49,885 bases of DNA from Carboxylicivirga sediminis (lineage in GTDB: Bacteria > Bacteroidota > Bacteroidia > Bacteroidales > Marinilabiliaceae): the NCBI RefSeq assembly GCF_018156225.1, contig NZ_JAGTAR010000040.1:1-49885 (forward strand), in the 5' to 3' direction. Positions 15,260 through 49,885 of the stretch are shown here, piece after piece (position 1 is the first letter of the stretch; every line of letters starts with the position of its first letter). The notes under the pieces are model-generated. The model was not told the DNA's origin. It searched no databases and saw nothing but the letters and a program-made list of their open reading frames with translations. The position numbers and the translations under genes were made by a program.

Positions 15260-15934
15260 TTATTTTAGTTCAAACTTAAACATGAATTGCCTTTGTATTT
15301 CTTTATTCAAAGTATTCTGAGAGCCTAATAGTCCTAAAGGCATGTTTTTCATCATGGTTTTATATAACTCCATTTGAGAGTCGCTCTCATTGATAATCTC
15401 TGAAATATTGAATAGTTGTCCTACTGTGTTGCCAGATACCAATGCTAATTGCTGTGCTTGTTTAAGAGCTTTTGAATATAAAAGATTAAACTTTTCATCT
15501 TGAGACAAAGATTCAGACTCATAATTGACATTCATTATTTTGCCACTTATTCCTTTTTCGTGTTTTAGTTTATTGTAAAGGCGTTTTAGGTCTTTAAGAT
15601 TATCTAACTCCACTTCAATGGTTGGATGTTTTGTTTGAATTGAGATTGAAAAGTCATTATCATCATTGACAATATATTTGAATTGCTCAGATTTAATCAT
15701 ATTCTCAATGTCGGTAAAAGAAGCCTGTGGAATATCAGTATCGTTGTTCATGGGAATATTCATACCCATAAATTCCATTTGTTGTCCAAAGCTAATCTGG
15801 TAAATAAATGATTTAGGTTTCAAAATGAAGGTTTCGCTACTAATAACTTCAATGTACTTTGTTTCTTGTGCTAAAGATTTGAATTGTATTAATATTAGTA
15901 CAAAAAGAACAAACAGAATTTGTATTTTTCTCAT
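15260..15934 (-). CDS. Exported SIMPL (DUF541)-like protein
   Basis: 224 residues with a signal peptide (ILFVLFVLILIQFKSLAQ). The mature protein begins KYIEVISSETFILKPKSFIYQISF and ends with an A-rich helix (SKALKQAQQLALVSGNTVGQLFNISEI), the two signatures of SIMPL-domain periplasmic proteins (DUF541), in which the helix is usually followed by a strand. The middle is more divergent than usual. SIMPL proteins are stress-linked periplasmic proteins of unclear function. The gene stands alone, AT-rich like its neighbour at 14550-15089, between 170- and 527-bp gaps. Confidence 0.6.
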   Translation of the reverse strand: MRKIQILFVLFVLILIQFKSLAQETKYIEVISSETFILKPKSFIYQISFGQQMEFMGMNIPMNNDTDIPQASFTDIENMIKSEQFKYIVNDDNDFSISIQTKHPTIEVELDNLKDLKRLYNKLKHEKGISGKIMNVNYESESLSQDEKFNLLYSKALKQAQQLALVSGNTVGQLFNISEIINESDSQMELYKTMMKNMPLGLLGSQNTLNKEIQRQFMFKFELK

Positions 15935-16461
15935 ACCTGGTTTACTTATTAATTTAAAATTATCGTTAGTTGATATTGCCCATAACTAATTTATCATCAT
16001 ATCTATGCACGACATCTTTACTATATCATTCATCACCTTGCAAAATCCGCGCACACCTGTGCATCCCTAAAATTATCCCTTATATTTCCACCGCCCCTTA
16101 TTATCAATTCTCGTCCTCACCTGGCAGCGAGGGGCAGCTGTTTTCCGATTAGTGCATGCTAAATTAAAATTTTTAGTTAAACATGCCCTATGCAGTTGAT
16201 AAATTATGTTGGTTTATTGATGAAAGGAGGAAAAGAGAAGGTTAGTAAGTCCGAAGTTTGTGGTCTGAAGTCCGAAGGATTATGAGTTGGAGGTTTCGGG
16301 TTACGAGTTCTGTTTAATGGTTGGGATGAGTGCCTGGTGCTTACTTCTTAGGCCTAGTATCTTTTGCCTGTTATCTGACTAAAAGTTGCCCGGCCATGGA
16401 GGAGAGTAACACGAGGCCAGGGCTTTAAATGCGTTATAAAATATTGGTGCTAACGTTTATC
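15935..16461. other. 527-bp intergenic region with 7-bp-period arrays
   Basis: No credible gene is present. The part next to the SIMPL-like gene (15935-16230) is AT-rich and should carry that gene's promoter. The rest holds two adjacent 7-bp-period arrays (16240-16323 and 16330-16378), described separately. The final stretch (16380-16461) trails into the osmC stop; I see no clear terminator. Confidence 0.6.
16240..16378. repeat. Two abutting degenerate 7-bp-period arrays
   Basis: From 16240 to 16323 about a dozen consecutive 7-mers keep G at the third position in nearly all units; AAGTCCG occurs at 16247 and 16268, with AAGTTTG at 16254. From 16330 to 16378 seven further 7-mers fit NNNCTNN, with C at position 4 in seven of seven and T at position 5 in six of seven (for example GTGCTTA at 16337, TATCTGA at 16372). 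The period is exact though units differ. No ORF explains it, because all frames contain stops. Confidence 0.6.
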
Positions 16462-16911
16462 TCACCCTATTTTTACTTCAACAGGTGTTTTGTTAATGAG
16501 GTTATCCAATACGGGACTGCGCTGTGCCATTATGGTTTTCCATTGCTCAAGTGTTTCGGGAGTGGCACTGGAAACGGGGTGCAGCTCAATGGTGATGCCC
16601 TGGTAGCCGGCCCGGTCATCGGTGGGCATACCAAACAGTTTCATGGGGTTGAGGTCACCGGTAATTTTTATCTTCAGGTCGCTTAGTTCCATATTCAGTT
16701 CCTGTGCTACTTTGAACGCCATAATATGCATGCAGCCGCTTAAACCGCACAAGAGGTATTCTACCGGGTTGGGTGCCTCGTCGGTACCGCCCAACTGGCT
16801 GGGTTCATCAATCAACACCTTAAACTGGCGAACTTGTACTTCTGACTGGGAACCCGATTTGGTTGTTGACTCCACATTGAAATTGATGGTTTGCACTTCC
16901 ATTACTTCCAT
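16462..16911 (-). CDS. OsmC-family protein lacking the second catalytic cysteine
   Basis: 149 residues of the OsmC/Ohr fold, small dimeric peroxidase-like proteins that reduce organic hydroperoxides. The N-terminal beta-hairpin is followed by PNPVEYLLCGLSGCMHIMAFKVA, the central helix with the peroxidatic cysteine (C60; C55 lies one turn before). The usual second-cysteine motif RCPV is here RSPV (S132), so the classic two-cysteine cycle cannot run; many non-peroxidase OsmC relatives show this. A second ATG three codons later (16902) is equally possible as start. Divergent from the Crp-type regulator, with a palindrome between. Confidence 0.88.
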   Translation of the reverse strand: MEVMEVQTINFNVESTTKSGSQSEVQVRQFKVLIDEPSQLGGTDEAPNPVEYLLCGLSGCMHIMAFKVAQELNMELSDLKIKITGDLNPMKLFGMPTDDRAGYQGITIELHPVSSATPETLEQWKTIMAQRSPVLDNLINKTPVEVKIG

Positions 16912-19370: not shown

Positions 19371-19462
19371 TGTATGAGTACTTTATTTATCTGTAATGGT
19401 TTAGAAAAACCCAGTTGTATTCTCATACTTTTTTGCCAGAGGTATTTAGCTGAACCTTCTGA

Positions 19463-21499
19463 TTAAATATTATCCAACAGGTGCTTACTGTTTAATTGCT
19501 TCTTTAGTTTTTTATGATTTTGCCAGAAGCGAGTATCTATCTCCCGCATGCAGGTTTTAAATTCGGGCATGTACCGGATATTATCAAACAGGGGGTCGTG
19601 AGGCGTAAACAGAGGCACCCATATTTGCAGTTGCTCTTGCTGGGTAAACTGCTGAAGCTGCTCAATAGCCTTGCTGTTCTGGTTCAGATAGGCATAGTAG
19701 CTGGCCCAAAAGAGGTGACGATACACTGACTGGTCCTGTTCAATAAATGCTTTGAAGCGTGTCACTAACTCATCGGCTTTGTCTGTCTGTCCCAGCTGGC
19801 GGTAGGTATAGGCCATGTCAATGTTTTTATGCGGATAGGGGTCCATCCTGAGGTGGTGGCATATCTGCAGGTAGCGATCGAAATAGCTTCGGGCTTCCTC
19901 CCAGTTACGTTGGTAGAAGTTAACGTTGCCCAGCTCAATCAGTATGTCGAAGCGGGTGCTGTCATTACCAAGTGCTTTATGCAGCATGGCCTCTGTTTCC
20001 TTGATGTCCTGGTTTTTAGCATATACAATGTAGGCTTTTACATACTCTGAAATGCTGTTGTCAGGGTTGTAACTCAATGATTTGTTGATGCTTTTAATGG
20101 CTTCATCCACAAAGCCGTTTTGCACCAATGCATTGCTCAGGTGCAGGTAAATATAGCTGGCCGTGTTGGAGTCGTTGGCATGTATATCAAGGTTAATGCC
20201 CATTAGCGCATACTCCAGGTATTTGCCGGTGTTGGGGATATGATTGGTGTAAATGTCCGACAGGGTGTTGATGACAGTAGCCGAATTGGGATTATACTCC
20301 AGTGCCTTTTCGAGGTACTCCAGCGCCTGGTGTACATCGTTGTTTTGCAGGTAATAGAGGGCTTTCCCGGTAAGGGCGGGCGCCAGCTGAGGGTTGAGCA
20401 GCAGGGCTTTGTCGGCGTAATAGATAAGTGAATCGCCCAGTGTTGTGTTGGGCACATAGCGGTCTTTGTAGTAATAGGCAATGGACAACACGCCATGAGC
20501 AAGTGCAAAGTACTCATCCTCATTCACCGCCTTTCGCAGCAGGGCAATGCCATTATTTAATCCATCGTTGGTTTCCTTGTGCAGCTGGTCAAGCCCTTTC
20601 AGGTAATAGTCGTAGGCCACCAGGTTACTGGTGGGTGCCTGGTTCAGTCGTTCCTGTTCCTCAGGACTGATGGTTAGTTCAATGGCTGAGGTGATTTTTT
20701 CGGCTACCTCCAGTTGCAGCGCAAATATGTTGTCCATTTGCTGGTTGTATTGTTCGGCCCATAAATGGTCATCAGTAGTGGCATCAATTAGCTGAACACT
20801 CAGCAGTATCTCGTTCCCCTGCTTCTGTCCGCTGCCTTCCAGTATGTAGCGCACCCCCAGTTCACTGGCTATCTCAGGTAGCGTGAGTTCACTATTACGA
20901 TACTTCTCTACCGAGGTGCGACTCACCACCTTTAAGCCCTGCAATGCCTGCAGCTTATTCAGGATAGACTCCATAAGGCCATTGACAACATACACATTGC
21001 TTGAGTCGTTACTGTCGTTGATAAACGGCAGTACTGCAATGGATTTATCACCGATAAGTTGCTTTTGGCGAGGTGTAAAAAGGATGAATGCCACTGTTAA
21101 CAATGCCACAGTGGCTGTAATCCATATCCAGGTGCGCGATGGTTTAGTTGGAAGAGTGGCTGAGGACCCGGTTTCCACTTGGTGCTGACCGGCTTCACCC
21201 GGTGGATAGCCGTACTGTTCCCTGAAACATTTAATGAAATAGGAAGTGCTGTTGAAGCCAACCATATACGTTACTTCCGAAACGGTTTTGCTCTCTGTCA
21301 GCAAGAGGTTCATGCCCTCTTCCAGGCGTATGTTGCGAATAAACTGACTGGCTGAGCAGCCTTGCTCTTTTTGTATCCGACGAAGCAGATTGGAACGGCT
21401 CATGCCGGCTTCGGCAGCCAGTTCGGATACCCCAAAGTGCTCATCCGACAGGTTGGCCATCACCAGCTCCTTCAGTTGATTGATAAAGGCTTCGTCCAT
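19463..21499 (-). CDS. Membrane-bound AraC regulator with TolB-like and TPR domains
   Basis: 678 residues from the ATG at 21499; the longer ORF from 21622 adds 41 residues with no conservation and is rejected. Order: AraC-type HTH at the N-terminus (about 5-105, FGVSELAAEAGMSRSNLLRRIQ and VSEVTYMVGFNSTSYFIKCF), one membrane helix (122-142), a TolB-like/CadC-like beta-alpha domain (about 150-285, KSIAVLPFINDS), then a long TPR array to the end. The DNA-binding end is inside and the TPR end is outside, a one-component sensor-regulator that binds an unknown envelope signal. It is divergent from the ankyrin lipoprotein and the acyltransferase, its most likely targets. Confidence 0.9.
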   Translation of the reverse strand: MDEAFINQLKELVMANLSDEHFGVSELAAEAGMSRSNLLRRIQKEQGCSASQFIRNIRLEEGMNLLLTESKTVSEVTYMVGFNSTSYFIKCFREQYGYPPGEAGQHQVETGSSATLPTKPSRTWIWITATVALLTVAFILFTPRQKQLIGDKSIAVLPFINDSNDSSNVYVVNGLMESILNKLQALQGLKVVSRTSVEKYRNSELTLPEIASELGVRYILEGSGQKQGNEILLSVQLIDATTDDHLWAEQYNQQMDNIFALQLEVAEKITSAIELTISPEEQERLNQAPTSNLVAYDYYLKGLDQLHKETNDGLNNGIALLRKAVNEDEYFALAHGVLSIAYYYKDRYVPNTTLGDSLIYYADKALLLNPQLAPALTGKALYYLQNNDVHQALEYLEKALEYNPNSATVINTLSDIYTNHIPNTGKYLEYALMGINLDIHANDSNTASYIYLHLSNALVQNGFVDEAIKSINKSLSYNPDNSISEYVKAYIVYAKNQDIKETEAMLHKALGNDSTRFDILIELGNVNFYQRNWEEARSYFDRYLQICHHLRMDPYPHKNIDMAYTYRQLGQTDKADELVTRFKAFIEQDQSVYRHLFWASYYAYLNQNSKAIEQLQQFTQQEQLQIWVPLFTPHDPLFDNIRYMPEFKTCMREIDTRFWQNHKKLKKQLNSKHLLDNI

Positions 21500-21829
21500 T
21501 ATAGGGTGGTGTTTAGTTACAACAGCAGGCAAGATACAAATTAATATGTAGGAGGTGCAGTTCCAAACGGATTGTTTTAAACTGGAGGTAAGCTTTGGTT
21601 GAATCCCACAATTCCTGATCAAAATTCAGGGGCGTATTGTGCAATCTTTTTTAACCCAAATCACTCTTTTGCATCATAATCAATACCCGTGCGTCATAGT
21701 TTACATGTGTGCGGCAAAGCTTATGTAATTGGCTGCATGGCTGATAGGCTTTGCGTCGCATCTTGTGGCAACTTTACATTGTCAAATTGATTTACAAATC
21801 ACCTCCGTTGAGGGATAAAATTTTGAGCT
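21500..21829. other. 330-bp divergent regulatory region
   Basis: No gene is visible between the AraC-TPR regulator and the ankyrin lipoprotein. The stretch must carry promoters for both directions. I could not single out a convincing TAnnTTTG box or a clear dyad. Confidence 0.5.
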
Positions 21830-22408
21830 ATGAAAACGAACAAGAATCTTAATCTATTAATGGTATCAAGGATGATGGTATTAAGTTTTATTTTAATGAG
21901 TGCATGCACTTCAAAAGGACAAAGCAATAAGGTCTCAGAACAAGCTGAAAAACCAGCTAAGGTAATGGATATTCATGCTGCTGCATTTATGGGTGATGTA
22001 AAGGCCATCAACTACCATATTAAAGCAGGAACTGATCTAAATCAAAAGGACGAATATGGTTCAACACCTCTGATTATTGCCACTACCTTCAACAGGGTGG
22101 AGGCAGCAAAAGCACTCATTGATGGTAAGGCTGACCTGAATCTTAAAAGTAAGGATGGATCAACGCCTTTGCATGTGGCCGCTTTCTTTTGCCGTACCGA
22201 AATTGTAGAATATTTACTGGACAATGGAGTCGATAAAAACCTGACTGACAGCTATGGTTCTACGCCATTGCAATCGGTAGCCGGTGCATTCGCTGAGGTT
22301 AAGCCTATCTATGAACAAATCAACCGCGACCTGGGACCTTTGGGGCTGCGACTAGATTACGAGGAGCTGGAAGCCACTCGGCCAAAGATTGCTGAATTAT
22401 TGAAATAG
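21830..22408 (+). CDS. Ankyrin-repeat lipoprotein
   Basis: 192 residues. A lipoprotein signal with LMSAC (Cys near residue 26) is followed by three clear ankyrin repeats: DIHAAAFMGDVKAINYHIKAG, STPLIIATTFNRVEAAKALIDG and STPLHVAAFFCRTEIVEYLLDNG, with a partial fourth. Ankyrin proteins bind other proteins, here outside the inner membrane. It is 26 bp upstream of the acyltransferase gene (operon) and faces the AraC-TPR regulator. Confidence 0.9.
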   Translation: MKTNKNLNLLMVSRMMVLSFILMSACTSKGQSNKVSEQAEKPAKVMDIHAAAFMGDVKAINYHIKAGTDLNQKDEYGSTPLIIATTFNRVEAAKALIDGKADLNLKSKDGSTPLHVAAFFCRTEIVEYLLDNGVDKNLTDSYGSTPLQSVAGAFAEVKPIYEQINRDLGPLGLRLDYEELEATRPKIAELLK

Positions 22409-22433
22409 TGGATTAGTAAAAAACAATATAGCC

Positions 22434-23537
22434 ATGGAAACAACAGCACGAAGATATGATATTGACTGGTTGAGGGTAATTGCGATAGGCTTGCTGCTTA
22501 TTTATCACGCAGCCATTGTGTTTCAGCCCTGGGGTGTATTCATCGGTTTTATTCAAAGCAATGATAGTATGGACAGTTTATGGATACCAATGTCAATGCT
22601 GAATGTATGGCGAATACCGCTTCTGTTTTTTGTATCGGGTATGGGTGTATACTTTTCAATGCGCAAGCGCTCGTGGAAACAGTTGCTCACCGAGCGCAGC
22701 TGGCGCATATTGCTGCCTTTTATATTTGGTATGCTGGCGATAGTGCCCTTGCACCAGTTTATATGGCAGGATTATTACAGTCAGGCTATCAGCTATATGC
22801 CGGGTCGTGGACATTTATGGTTTTTGGGAAATATCTTCTGCTATGTGGTGCTGTTGTTGCCGGTGTTCTATTACCTTCTGCGTAAGCCAGATAGTTTGGC
22901 TGTGCGTTTCATAAGAAAGGTGATGACTCACCCGGCAGGGGCGCTTATGGTGGCGCTGCTTATCATGCTCGAAACCATATTGGTTAGTCCACAATCGTAT
23001 GAGCTCTATGCCCACACCTGGCACGGGTTCTACATGGGTTTATTAGCTTTTTTATTTGGCTTTCTAATGGTTTGGGTGGGGCAGCCATTCTGGGATAGCA
23101 TTCTAAAATGGCGTTGGTTGTACCTGGCATCGGCAGGCATTCTGTTTGGTGTTCGCTGGCTGGTGTTTGAACTACAACCACCACTTTACTTGTTTCCCAT
23201 AGAAACAACGGCCTGGATATATACGGTGTTCGCGTTTGGGTACCGTTATCTGAACCGCCCTGGCCAGGTACTCAAGTATCTCAGTAAGGCCGCTTACCCG
23301 GTTTATATATTGCACATGGTGTTTTTGTATATGGGTGCGACGTTTGTTTTGCCAATGGATGTGCCGCTATTGATAAAATTTTTAGTTGTTACACTTATTA
23401 GTTTATTGGGCAGCCTTTTAGTGTTTGAGTTGTTTATTCGCCGTACCTGGTTAATAGGTGTTCTGTTTGGATGCAGGCGTCGGCCAGTAAATAATTATAA
23501 GGTACCAGCACCCTGCATCAGCTCTGAAGGCAACTAA
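22434..23537 (+). CDS. Acyltransferase 3 family membrane protein
   Basis: 367 residues with about ten transmembrane helices. The start RRYDIDWLRVIAIGLLLIYH is the family's signature, with the catalytic-type histidine in helix 1 (YHAAIVFQPW); the later FFVSGMGVYFSMRKRSW and HLWFLGNIF also fit. Family members move acyl groups (acetyl, succinyl) to sugars, peptidoglycan or glucans at the membrane; OpgC-like members decorate osmoregulated glucans. The stop overlaps the stop of the convergent AraC gene by 4 bp. Acceptor unknown. Confidence 0.9.
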   Translation: METTARRYDIDWLRVIAIGLLLIYHAAIVFQPWGVFIGFIQSNDSMDSLWIPMSMLNVWRIPLLFFVSGMGVYFSMRKRSWKQLLTERSWRILLPFIFGMLAIVPLHQFIWQDYYSQAISYMPGRGHLWFLGNIFCYVVLLLPVFYYLLRKPDSLAVRFIRKVMTHPAGALMVALLIMLETILVSPQSYELYAHTWHGFYMGLLAFLFGFLMVWVGQPFWDSILKWRWLYLASAGILFGVRWLVFELQPPLYLFPIETTAWIYTVFAFGYRYLNRPGQVLKYLSKAAYPVYILHMVFLYMGATFVLPMDVPLLIKFLVVTLISLLGSLLVFELFIRRTWLIGVLFGCRRRPVNNYKVPAPCISSEGN

Positions 23538-25162: not shown

Positions 25163-25231
25163 TGCTTTTTTAGTTTGATACTGTTCTTAGTTGATTTTTA
25201 AAAACGGGTGTCAGGAACGTTAAAAAGACAA

Positions 25232-25252
25232 TTGTAAACTTGTAATTCGTAA
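25232..25252. repeat. Three 7-bp-period units
   Basis: TTGTAAA, CTTGTAA and TTCGTAA follow each other at exact 7-bp steps, sharing GTAA in a sliding position. Too short to be certain on its own; it gains weight from the other 7-bp arrays in this window. Confidence 0.35.
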
Positions 25253-25262
25253 GAAAACACTC

Positions 25263-25406
25263 CACCTCAATCCTCTCCTACAAGGAGAGGAAGCCGCTAC
25301 TTAACGAAAATATAATCTTACATTAGAGATAGTTGCCTTTTCGATAATGTCACTTTCTCCTTGAGGAGGATTTATTCCGCCAAAGCGGAAAGGCCGGGAT
25401 GAGGTG
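25263..25406. repeat. 144-bp inverted-repeat (MITE/REP-like) element
   Basis: The ends are inverted: CACCTCAATCC at the left and GGGATGAGGTG at the right (25396-25406), with one extra base in the left arm. Inside are small hairpins CTCTCC/GGAGAG (25274-25290), CTCCTTGAGGAG (25358-25369) and TTCCGC/GCGGAA (25375-25390). This pattern of end motif plus internal hairpins resembles dispersed palindromic repeats seen in Bacteroidota genomes. No ORF, and no target duplication that I can see. Confidence 0.6.
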
Positions 25407-25469
25407 ATAATGTTAGTTTTGAAATTGCCTATCTTAATTTTCGGACAAGTTCTTCATAACTAGCAGTGC

Positions 25470-26615: not shown

Positions 26616-27061
26616 TATTGTGTCTTTTAAGTGTTATGCAATTGATAATTCAAAAGTAGAGCACTGTCAATACAATAATTGAAATATATTACTGATTGAT
26701 GTATACATTTTACTGATGATGTATCTTTCTTGAATTGAGGTGAATAAATATCTTCTGGGCTGGTGGTAAATGATTATCCAACGTATTGAGGTGTTTTTGG
26801 AGGTGATTTATAAGCGGTAAAACAGGAGGATTCTTAATAGTTGCAAGTTATTGATCTTCAATGGTGATTAATAAGCTGGAAAAACATGCCTACGTTTTGA
26901 TCAAAACGTGCTTATGTTTTAAGTAAAACGTCACTACGTTTTTTCACAAACATCAGCATGTTTTAAAAACAGATGCATAAAACAACGAATAAAGGTTAGT
27001 CTATTGAGCAAGTAGCAAGGTGTATTTATCACTAAAGCGATGTTGCGCTTATTTTCATTGT
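26616..27061. other. 446-bp intergenic region
   Basis: No gene is visible. The region should hold the alcohol-dehydrogenase promoter (26616-26880) and ends after the PD40 gene. It contains the 11/22-bp-period tract (26881-26975). I see no clear rho-independent terminator for the PD40 operon. Confidence 0.6.
26881..26975. promoter_or_regulatory. Tandem dyad array with 22-bp period
   Basis: Half-sites AAAACGT and ACGTTTT (or with CAT/ATG ends) alternate every 11 bp. The best dyad, ACGTTTTGATCAAAACGT at 26892-26909, is a perfect 18-bp palindrome. Further dyads start at 26914 and 26936, the latter weaker, a left half at 26958, and a right half AAAACAT sits at 26881-26887, all at 22-bp phase. Two helical turns between dyads puts them on one face of the DNA, so a cooperatively binding repressor or architectural protein is possible. 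Between the PD40 stop and the dehydrogenase start; no CRISPR-like spacers. Confidence 0.55.
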
Positions 27062-43154: not shown

Positions 43155-45953
43155 TCAGTAGCCCGTTTGTATTAGCTTACCATTGATAATTTGGTTGCCA
43201 CATTTCAGTTGATAGAAATAGATGTTGCTGCCAGTTGAACGGCTTCTGAAATCAAAGTTGTATTTGGTATCGGCATTCACAGGCCCTTCATAAATGCAAT
43301 CAATCAGCTCGCCACCAACGCCATAGATGTTAAGGATGGCGTGGGCATCCTCTGCGGGTGTGAAGGTAATGCTGGTTTGATCCACAAAGGGGTTGGGATA
43401 GCTTAACGATGATAGCGATTGAGCCGGCGCATTGTATTGCAAAGTGTCGCGCATAATGCACTGTGCGGCTTTGTAGGCTACTATAAAGGCTAGCTGTGGT
43501 TCGTTGCTGTTGCAAATGGTAAATTCAAGCTCAAATGCATCAGTCGAATGGCCAAAGCCAGTGATATCATCCACCTTAAAACCGTAAAGACCAGTTGTAG
43601 GATCTGTTAAATTAAGCTCTGTAGTCCAGTTGCTGGAGTTATTCACCGTTTGTACATAGCCGTTATCAACCTGAATGGTTAAATGCGATAGATCATGCTG
43701 ACAGCTACCGTCTGTGCTAACTTTCGCCTTGTAGGTATAGCAACCATTGTCGTTTTTAGTCCATTCAACAGCTTGTATGTCAAAGCAGGTGTTTTCGCAG
43801 TCTGTTGTCTCTTCGTTGCCATTATCCTCTTCGCCGCCATCTGTTGGTGCTTCAGTACAGCTTAAAATAATCATATCCTGTGCCTGACAGCCTTCAGCGT
43901 TCTCAACCAACAGGCTGATGCTGACCTGTCCTTCGCCGGCACTGTATAGCAGCTCTTCCATCTGCTCTTGCTGAATGGTCCAGGTGTTGCTGGCGTCAGT
44001 GATTGACCAGGTGTATTGCGTTGCTCCCTCTACTACAGCCCATAAGGTATTATCAGTGCTGTTGCATACCGGTTGCTGTTGTGGTGCCACAATGGTGACA
44101 CTTGGCTGATTAACTTTGTTAATGGTTATTGCTTTGCTGACAGAGCAACCCGCAGCATCTTCTATGGTAATGATGTATTCACCCGGTTTCAGCTCAGTAC
44201 GTTGCAGCCCGCTGTATCCATCCGACCATAGGGCATTGAATGGCTCGGTGCCCTGTTCAACGCTAATGCTAACACTTCCTAAGGCATCGCTACAGCTTGG
44301 TTGCTGAATATTGACAGTAGCATCCAGTCCGGTATCCGGACGTTCGATTAGGATTTGTTGAGTGACGCTACAGCCATTGGCATCCACTGCTGTAAACTCA
44401 TAGTAGCCTGCTTTGTCAACCACAAATTCGTCCACCAACTCGTTGTTGTGGTAAATTTGGTATGGTGGTGTGCCACCCGATGCCGTAAGGCTAACGCTCA
44501 TTGATGAATCGGCTTCATCACAGCTTACGCGATTCACCTGTGCGCTTAAGTTTATCTGAGCAGGCTCGCTCACCTTGATGTATTTACTGCGCGTGCATCC
44601 CATGGCATCGGTAACCGTTACCGAATACCAATCACCAGCCAGGCCATCAATGGTGGCCGTTGTTTCGCCATTATCCCAAACAATGTCATAGGGTTCGGTA
44701 CCATTGGTGATGTCAATGCTGATAGAGCCACTGTTATCGCCGTAGCATACCGGGTTATTAACGTTTGAGATAATATTCAGTTTCTTGATAACCACATATC
44801 CTTTTTGTGTGATGGAACAGCCATTGGCATCTGTAATGGTTACCTGGTGAGTACCACTGTTCAGTTCGCTGATGGTGGCCGTTGTTTCGCCATTGTCCCA
44901 CAGGTATGAATAGGGAGGTGTTCCGCCACTCACTTCTACTGTAAGAGTGCCTTTTCCTTCCTCGTAGCACTCAAGATAGCTGGAACTGATGTTGGCCCTT
45001 AAATCTGTTTCTGCTGCAATGGTGTAGTTGAATGTCTTTATACAGCCGCTGGCATCTGTCAGTGTCAGCGTGTAACTGCCTTCACTAAGGTTTTCGATAG
45101 ATGCTGTTGTGGCTCCTGTATTCCATGAGAAGCTATAGGGCTCAATGCCGCCGCTGACCTCCGTGCTAATGGCGCCATCAGCCTGACCGCAGGTCGTATT
45201 AATCACTTGGGCAGTGGCCTTGAGGGATTCTGGTTGTGTAATAATGGCCTCCAGTGTGACTGTTTCATTATTCGCATCGCTAATGGTGACTGTGTAAGCA
45301 CCTGGCGACAGGTTGCTGATTGTTTCAGTTGTTGCCCCATTGCTCCAGACGCACTCATAAGGCGGTGTGCCATTGGTAACGGTCACTGTTGCCTGTCCAT
45401 CATTACTGCCATAACAAATAATCGGCGATGCATCAATGCTGGCTTGCAGCTTGTTGCTGACCAGTTCTTCTTCGTCAATAGCTATGCAGGTACCTGCTTT
45501 GTAAGCTACCTTAAACAGCTTACTTTTTAATTGCTCCAGGCAGGCATCATCATCGTACTGAATGGTGTACTTCAGTGTGAATGCTGCGGCCTGCCCATCC
45601 TCACCAAAACCTTGTATATCATCCACCTTCAGGCCATAAATGTTGGTAGTAGGATCAGTGCTGTTAATTTCCATCGGCCAGTTGCCCGAATTGGTTGCTT
45701 CAGTCACTGTGCCACAAGGTATCTCAACGGTGAAGTGCGATAGAGCAGCAGAGCAGCCATCGGCATTTACTTGCAGCTCAACAGTCAGGTAATTGTCAGA
45801 CTCATTAAAGGAAATGATTTCAGTATTGAAACACTCGTCGCAATTGGCGTCAGCCGATTGTCCGTATGCTACTGACAGAGGGGTGTGTAGGTATATGGCT
45901 AATAAAAACAGTAGCAATGTACTGTGTTTTCTTTTGATGTAACCAGATTTCAT
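43155..45953 (-). CDS. T9SS-exported SprB-repeat surface protein
   Basis: 932 residues. Signal peptide (LLLFLLAIYLHTPLSVAYG), then a domain with LTVELQVNADGCSAALSHFTVE and TDPTTNIYGLKVDDIQGFG (about 45-160), six SprB repeats of about 75 residues (pattern GGTPPYxxxWxxGxTTxxIxxLxxGxYxVTITDAxGC), a PKD-like part (SITDASNTWTIQ), a second copy of the first domain (about 725-835: TDPTTGLYGFKVDDITGFG), and a type IX sorting domain (YPNPFVDQTSITF to GKLIQTGY). SprB proteins form gliding or adhesion fibres; this one is small. The repeated outer domain is unusual. Confidence 0.93.
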   Translation of the reverse strand: MKSGYIKRKHSTLLLFLLAIYLHTPLSVAYGQSADANCDECFNTEIISFNESDNYLTVELQVNADGCSAALSHFTVEIPCGTVTEATNSGNWPMEINSTDPTTNIYGLKVDDIQGFGEDGQAAAFTLKYTIQYDDDACLEQLKSKLFKVAYKAGTCIAIDEEELVSNKLQASIDASPIICYGSNDGQATVTVTNGTPPYECVWSNGATTETISNLSPGAYTVTISDANNETVTLEAIITQPESLKATAQVINTTCGQADGAISTEVSGGIEPYSFSWNTGATTASIENLSEGSYTLTLTDASGCIKTFNYTIAAETDLRANISSSYLECYEEGKGTLTVEVSGGTPPYSYLWDNGETTATISELNSGTHQVTITDANGCSITQKGYVVIKKLNIISNVNNPVCYGDNSGSISIDITNGTEPYDIVWDNGETTATIDGLAGDWYSVTVTDAMGCTRSKYIKVSEPAQINLSAQVNRVSCDEADSSMSVSLTASGGTPPYQIYHNNELVDEFVVDKAGYYEFTAVDANGCSVTQQILIERPDTGLDATVNIQQPSCSDALGSVSISVEQGTEPFNALWSDGYSGLQRTELKPGEYIITIEDAAGCSVSKAITINKVNQPSVTIVAPQQQPVCNSTDNTLWAVVEGATQYTWSITDASNTWTIQQEQMEELLYSAGEGQVSISLLVENAEGCQAQDMIILSCTEAPTDGGEEDNGNEETTDCENTCFDIQAVEWTKNDNGCYTYKAKVSTDGSCQHDLSHLTIQVDNGYVQTVNNSSNWTTELNLTDPTTGLYGFKVDDITGFGHSTDAFELEFTICNSNEPQLAFIVAYKAAQCIMRDTLQYNAPAQSLSSLSYPNPFVDQTSITFTPAEDAHAILNIYGVGGELIDCIYEGPVNADTKYNFDFRSRSTGSNIYFYQLKCGNQIINGKLIQTGY

Positions 45954-48360: not shown

Positions 48361-48449
48361 TAGTGCTCAGTGCCTTGTGCACCGTGCTTGTTTTATTTAT
48401 TAAGTCCGGAAGAAAGCTAATGGCCAACAGCTATCAGCTAACAGCTCCA
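48361..48449. repeat. 7-bp-period repeats between ftcD and hutI
   Basis: First block: four consecutive 7-mers with NNGTGCN (48361, 48368, 48375, 48382). Second block, in one phase from 48402: AAGTCCG, then units such as GCTAATG (48416), GCTATCA (48430) and GCTAACA (48437). The second block runs over the hutI stop codon. Period is exact; unit sequence differs between the blocks. No gene or terminator is apparent in it. Confidence 0.5.
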
Positions 48450-49681: not shown

Positions 49682-49768
49682 GTAAAACGATTTATCTGCT
49701 TTTTACGGATTTAAAAGTAGAATAATTGTGCCATGCATGTCTATGATTTTAATCAATTGGTTTTTTTA

Positions 49769-49885
49769 AGTCAGTAGTGATTAGTCAGTGGTCAGTAGTT
49801 AGGCAGAAGAAAAAAGAGAAAAGCGATGAGAAGTGAGAGGTAAGAAGACCGGGGACGGATGGCCGAGTCCGTAGTCCGAAGTTCG
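49769..49885. repeat. 7-bp-period arrays upstream of hutI, cut by window end
   Basis: Block one: AGTCAGT (49769 and 49783), AGTGATT (49776), GGTCAGT (49790), AGTTAGG (49797). Block two, from about 49823 to the window end in one phase, finishes with GAGTCCG (49865), TAGTCCG (49872) and AAGTTCG (49879). The unit AGTCCG is shared with the array at 16240-16323. The array continues past the window. Confidence 0.6.

Follow-up and report, generated by a model that had tools for sequence, protein, structure and literature searches.

The array and its surroundings

The window analyzed here, 49,885 nucleotides in length, is the entire contig C68 of the genome of Carboxylicivirga sediminis (G000; 5.8 Mb, 133 contigs). 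A faint array of 7-bp units, referred to as the window array, is flanked on its left by a dispersed element, the head, with an ORF beyond it, and on its right by an OsmC-like gene (Table 1). The window array is intergenic, as it is overlapped by no ORF of at least 60 aa. A search for known RNA gave no match in the window at gathering scores and none at an E value of 1 across positions 15900-16460. The sequence was compared with that of G011, a sister species and close relative of G000 with approximately 92-95% identity over aligned stretches.

Table 1. Positions of the features discussed (window coordinates unless a contig is named)
Feature	Position	Strand	Description	Basis
Left ORF of the window head	15260..15934	-	224 aa; without a local counterpart in G011
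Head	~16051..16231	.	Dispersed, non-coding, ~200 bp; left end not sharp
Head hairpin arms	16091-16097/16131-16137 and 16149-16153/16158-16162
Other heads in G000	contigs C38, C45, C50, C51, C52, C54, C79, C84, C95, C96
Window array	16240..16378		Blocks 1 to 3
Block 1	16248..16282	+	AGTCCGA AGTTTGT GGTCTGA AGTCCGA AGGATTA; decayed AGTCCGA heptads	Sequence
Block 2	16285..16312	+	AGTTGGA GGTTTCG GGTTACG AGTTCTG; RGTTNNN heptads	Sequence
Block 3	16329..16377	+	AGTGCCT GGTGCTT ACTTCTT AGGCCTA GTATCTT TTGCCTG TTATCTG; decayed, RGTGCYT-like	Sequence, column count
OsmC-like gene right of the array	16462..16911	-	Common to G000 and G011	Pfam PF02566; alignment
Second, faint heptad stretch	48362..48446	.	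RGTGCYT-like, then AGCTAAC units
Third heptad array	49764..49885	+	Runs off the contig end

An earlier note on this DNA had described a 7-bp step kept by changing units, with G at the third position of nearly all units in one part and C at position 4 in seven of seven units of a second block. All of this was recovered. Shifted by 7 bases, the window array agrees with itself at 63 of 132 positions. None of 20000 dinucleotide-preserving shuffles attained this value, and the z scores from 500 shuffles were -0.1, 5.8 and -0.6 for lags 6, 7 and 8, respectively, confirming that the periodicity is real. Position 3 is G in 10 of the 12 heptads counted from 16240 and position 4 is C in all 7 counted from 16330. 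The step is kept within the blocks; counted by reading, the start of the RG word shifts by two bases at both block borders.

The array is nevertheless faint, being unlisted by Tandem Repeats Finder at a minimum score of 30; furthermore, 23 is the highest score that it attains at lag 7 in 42-base windows, and the best of seven other lags is just as high. In its period, its intergenic place and the whole-unit length change that separates it from its counterpart in G011 (21 bp), the window array agrees with heptanucleotide simple sequence repeats, although the blank from Tandem Repeats Finder and the three word types make it a decayed descendant of one and not a present-day simple repeat. The description of the array in the earlier note as no plain tandem repeat fits its present state only: each block can be understood as what is left of tandem repeats, with several words involved. 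TAACTGA and TCAGTTA are both absent from 16240-16378, and the units do not each carry the run of at least three G that marks quadruplex-forming heptads.

G011 carries the window array at the orthologous locus, with point changes that lead away from AGTCCGA in G000 at some sites and in G011 at others. At the place of block 1, G011 has AGGTTCG and GGTCCGA-like units; block 2, whose word type is also found in other arrays, is identical in the two species, and a net gap of 21 bp between the two arrays is located in block 3.

Heptads in the rest of the genome and in other genomes

The analysis covered 1,208,033 of the 5,808,478 bases of G000. Besides the window and C45, which entered the sample through a sequence match at its end, the contigs were mostly picked for holding arrays or heads, so that the density of arrays in them is biased. 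In the window itself, similar heptads occur at two further places, as the earlier note had remarked (Table 1). The array at the contig end has 91 bp in common, at 96.7%, with the end of C45 (C45:453530-453766), and a single stretch of G011 (L177) matches both contig ends; the two contigs therefore probably adjoin, the assembly having probably broken inside the heptads between them. Words of the window array types recur in G000 arrays beside AGTCAGT, AGGCAGA, AGTGARA, AGCTGAT and others.

A count of clusters reaching 29 of 49 matches was made at each lag in 1,144,995 bases, where most contigs had been chosen for arrays and lag 21 is also raised by codons: there were 26, 19 and 30 clusters at lags 7, 14 and 21, respectively, and 0 to 8 at each of the remaining lags between 4 and 29. 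When restricted to C45 and the window (413,651 bases), the counts were 7, 5 and 9, with 0 to 4 elsewhere. Excess lag-7 autocorrelation in intergenic DNA, which the earlier note had led one to expect, was found in the sampled part of G000. The z scores at lags 7, 14 and 21 were 4.2, 3.0 and 1.0 for the window and 6.2, 8.0 and 5.5 for 363 kb of C45 (4.3, 6.0 and 5.0 minus its last 5 kb). Among the relatives, with 120-270 kb sampled per genome, they were 2.4, 3.1 and 1.1 in G011, 2.9, 4.4 and 4.0 in G035, 3.9, -0.1 and 4.0 in G002, and 1.4, 1.8 and 2.0 in G005. Lag 4 was raised too in all intergenic sets (z 2.8 to 6.2).

Length and sequence change were followed in the G000 arrays with at least 28 of 49 matches, 43 in all, 14 of which fall inside a single alignment with G011 and are comparable. 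Length is unchanged in 4 of the 14 and differs in 10, by 21, 28, 21, 7, -31, 26, -13, 42, -1 and 32 bp; five of these differences are exact multiples of 7 and five are not. Where a gap falls inside a repeat is uncertain. In random control windows of 120 columns, a length that some arrays exceed and a sample that takes in coding DNA, length differs in 1856 of 18231. Of the indels of at least 4 bp, 11 of 25 within arrays are divisible by 7 vs. 7 of 58 outside them (Fisher p 0.0027). Additionally, adjacent units within arrays have a similarity of 4.12 of 7, whereas units nine apart have 1.99 and units twelve apart 1.84.

A register common to 29 arrays, 28 that passed the threshold and the window array added by hand, gave 1.512 bits per heptad, compared with 1.313 +/- 0.039 (maximum 1.409) for 100 sets in which the seven columns were permuted within each array; the figure overstates independence because some of the 29 share descent or one locus. 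The shared core is C followed by a pyrimidine, or RG on the opposite strand. As to gene context, 16 of the 29 arrays lie between co-directional genes, 3 between divergent and 1 between convergent genes, 1 is in an ORF and 8 are undetermined. Against a baseline of 274, 96 and 43 this is no preference, and a link to gene orientation was rejected. A fixed orientation of arrays along the chromosome was likewise rejected, the strands being mixed within one contig (e.g. C73, 20970 and 21192). Nor do the arrays qualify as hairpins or terminators, as inverted arms of at least 18 bp are present in 0 of the 29.

The words extend well beyond this genome. AGTCAGTAGTCAGTAGTCAG with up to two mismatches was found in 16 of 60 genomes, including G000, and 5 of 45 genera, vs. 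6 of 60 genomes, with 1 to 3 places each, for its reversed control. Across the phylum, with one mismatch, matches came from 21 of 395 genomes and 14 of 171 genera, vs. 6 of 395 genomes for the control pattern, with up to 19 places in one. An exact search with AGTCAGTAGTCAGTAGTCAGTAG returned at least 119 stretches of genome_contigs from many phyla, and 80 loci among the matches listed were examined. Inverted arms of at least 18 bp occur in 16 of these 80 arrays among the matches listed and in 0 of 80 single shuffles; in L298, L242, L277, L303 and L276, heptad arrays are followed by complementary heptad arrays, forming long inverted repeats. Exact 20-mers of AGTCAGT were present in 39 stretches of viral_contigs, vs. 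7, 6, 4 and 1 for four other words of identical composition; AGGCAGA was present in 34 and AGTCCGA in 12. Tandem GGAACAG, the control for AGGCAGA, was found in at least 120 viral_contigs stretches, far above the other words tried. A universal vocabulary, in which the words of G000 are specially favored across bacteria, was rejected on the figures for AGTCCGA and GGAACAG: words differ greatly in how often they are used, and those of G000 are not special. TTTAGGG-like words resemble plant telomere repeats, presumably by chance.

The head element and the genes to its left

With the window head as query, 10 places were matched in G000, the window among them, and one further copy lies at C50:80917. 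Another head copy used as query matched 7 of 14 genomes of the genus at E 0.001. At E 0.0001, a 151-base head core matched 6 of these 14 genomes but none of the 57 others examined from the family; judged by these matches, the element is genus-limited. Eleven copies fit two hairpins with 12 pairs, 2 of which have changed on both strands of the stem; pairing is lost in several cells, and covariation contributes little (-0.24 kcal/mol). No plasmid match for the head was obtained, and in a literature search no published description of a head-like element was recognised by title. Like integron attachment sites the head has hairpins, but it is the start of a gene, not the end, that lies near it.

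Of the testable head copies, 7 of 9 in G000 and 6 of 7 in G011 have an array with at least 24 of 42 matches on their right; the G000 heads without one are the window copy, which scores 23, and that in C50. The background is 212 intergenic gaps of at least 200 bp, 12 of which hold arrays. Left out of this test were L125, L126 and L136, which have no right side, L137, L140 and the C41 head, as well as the left-side values for L127 and L128, which are artifacts of slicing.

The left ORFs chosen at the head copies read away from the head; at L142 a shorter ORF on the opposite strand is nearer. The left ORF of G000 is without a local counterpart in G011 at 7 of 8 comparable loci, vs. 14 of 203 ORFs from three syntenic stretches, the third including the C45 head; counterparts were judged locally and may be present elsewhere in G011. 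The head core is covered in G011 at 7 of the 8 loci, the exception being C96. The head is regarded as a putative exchange or insertion border.

PADLOC models (E 0.001) were matched by 11 of 22 distinct left proteins, including SIR2, PDC-S06, AriAB, ThsB and AbiU, names that denote sequence similarities to defense models and not function. The matches are 6 of 8 proteins in G000, 3 of 7 in G011 and 2 of 7 in other genomes. The left protein of the window had no Pfam match above the cut-off, no NCBIfam match and no PADLOC match; of 12 other window proteins one has a PADLOC match, a weak one. The proteins scanned first had been picked partly for their defense-like looks, and 7 of 8 matched; the rest were then scanned, giving the 11 of 22, with the C50 left protein excluded.

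It is conceivable, but improbable, that the window array forms the stationary shoulder of an exchange site confined to the genus, a dispersed, folded element of some 200 bp where single genes, often for phage defense, would be swapped between species as the head, the array and the gene beyond stay in place, the heptads being the scar of repeated cutting and resynthesis. The picking bias in the first-scanned proteins, and the count of 11 of 22 that followed, lower the odds of this reading. If the head is an exchange site, it would give this genus a compact way to rotate accessory and defense genes.

Origin of the window array

The window array is very probably an old, decayed mosaic of several heptanucleotide microsatellite blocks, made by slippage and drift. 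Slipped-strand mispairing or unequal exchange would have copied short heptads locally, each time by whole 7-bp units. Amplification of different words next to one another would have given the blocks, and point mutations would afterwards have blurred each of them. Since substitutions leave the spacing untouched, the 7-bp step would outlive the unit. Slippage, rather than recombination or unequal exchange, is the step-making process favored here, and the array itself presumably has no function. The suggestion of slippage plus drift in the earlier note is borne out by the whole-unit length changes, the point changes in the array shared with G011 and the fall in unit similarity from 4.12 to about 1.9 over nine units.

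That the periodicity arose by chance and was picked out by eye is extremely unlikely. The array is missing from the Tandem Repeats Finder list and its 42-base lag-7 score ties with the best of seven other lags, as chance would allow, but no shuffle scored as high; choice by eye inflates that figure and leaves the other evidence unaffected, namely the intergenic lag excess and the clear arrays with like words in the genome. It is very unlikely, too, that selection keeps the heptads in phase as putative protein or RNA binding sites, phased or in tandem. The RG (CY) core shared by the 29 arrays exceeds the 100 column-permuted sets, and in the fitted register, albeit one fitted on the same data, the mean similarity between arrays (2.31 of 7) is higher than that of distant units within arrays. 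Yet unit similarity drops along the arrays, a decay predicted by local duplication and drift and not by a fixed binding motif; moreover, array lengths vary freely and gene context is without preference. The common register is not predicted by slippage of random local words alone; it may stem from the common descent of some arrays. A helically phased protein, also raised in the earlier note, finds no support, as no motif is constant along the arrays, array lengths change, and 7 bp is not a helical repeat.

The remaining alternative ties the array to the head: the array would be the right shoulder of a single-gene exchange site, where breakage and resynthesis make and feed the heptads. Arrays to the right of 13 of the 16 testable copies in G000 and G011, vs. 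12 of 212 long intergenic gaps, and the frequent lack of a local counterpart for the left ORF (7 of 8 loci vs. 14 of 203 ORFs) speak for such a site. On the other hand, the testable heads of G006, G009 and G010 have arrays in 0 of 6 cases, the window copy falls below the threshold of 24, many arrays are distant from any detected head, and the 16 copies, which include orthologous pairs, are not independent. As an account of the heptads it is judged quite unlikely.

Read as a mosaic of decayed microsatellites, the window array has several known counterparts. Cyanobacterial STRR sequences are 7-bp tandem units between genes that are said to keep one unit. The window array shares with them the intergenic tandem heptads but has three words in 130 bp. 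Heptameric repeats of Xanthomonas (GGGAATC, GGGANTN) and Nostoc (GGGGA(C/T)T) are heterogeneous and vary among close relatives, according to PMC4692102. As described there, they resemble the present arrays in being intergenic 7-bp units with some positions conserved, inverted forms and variation in length and sequence. They differ in having one word family per genome and G-runs capable of forming quadruplexes, whereas several families side by side and no G-run per unit were found here. TAACTGA direct repeats are known from Beggiatoaceae, cyanobacteria and five Bacteroidetes and, according to PMC4679880, are likewise intergenic heptamers mixed with others, with 7-nt indels and contigs ending in repeats; what sets them apart from the present arrays is a definition through a single unit and, in BOGUAY, a position just before start codons. 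The long simple sequence repeats described by Mrazek et al. 2007, as cited in PMC4679880 and PMC4692102, include a heptanucleotide class attributed to polymerase slippage. The window array is of the same class but too decayed for a simple repeat; it is a decayed member of this published kind. The contrast that the earlier note drew with unit-keeping repeats was therefore too sharp, as heterogeneous heptad arrays are in print (PMC4692102, PMC4679880).

The array shows a microsatellite that keeps its period after the unit has been lost. Such remains are missed by repeat finders; lag scans would recover decayed arrays and with them a record of past slippage.

Other features of the window were observed in passing. 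Another dispersed repeat, of about 200-265 bp with 80-86% identity among copies, lies at 25202-25408 and also in C85, C44 and C45. A stretch of about 4.2 kb with three larger ORFs (19372-23533) is missing at the counterpart site in G011, where there are 83 bp, and a 22-bp tandem repeat (AAAACGTGCCTACGTTTTAAGC) at 26881-26942 borders a stretch that differs from G011. A T9SS sorting domain, which points to Bacteroidota, is encoded in the ORF at 43155-45953.
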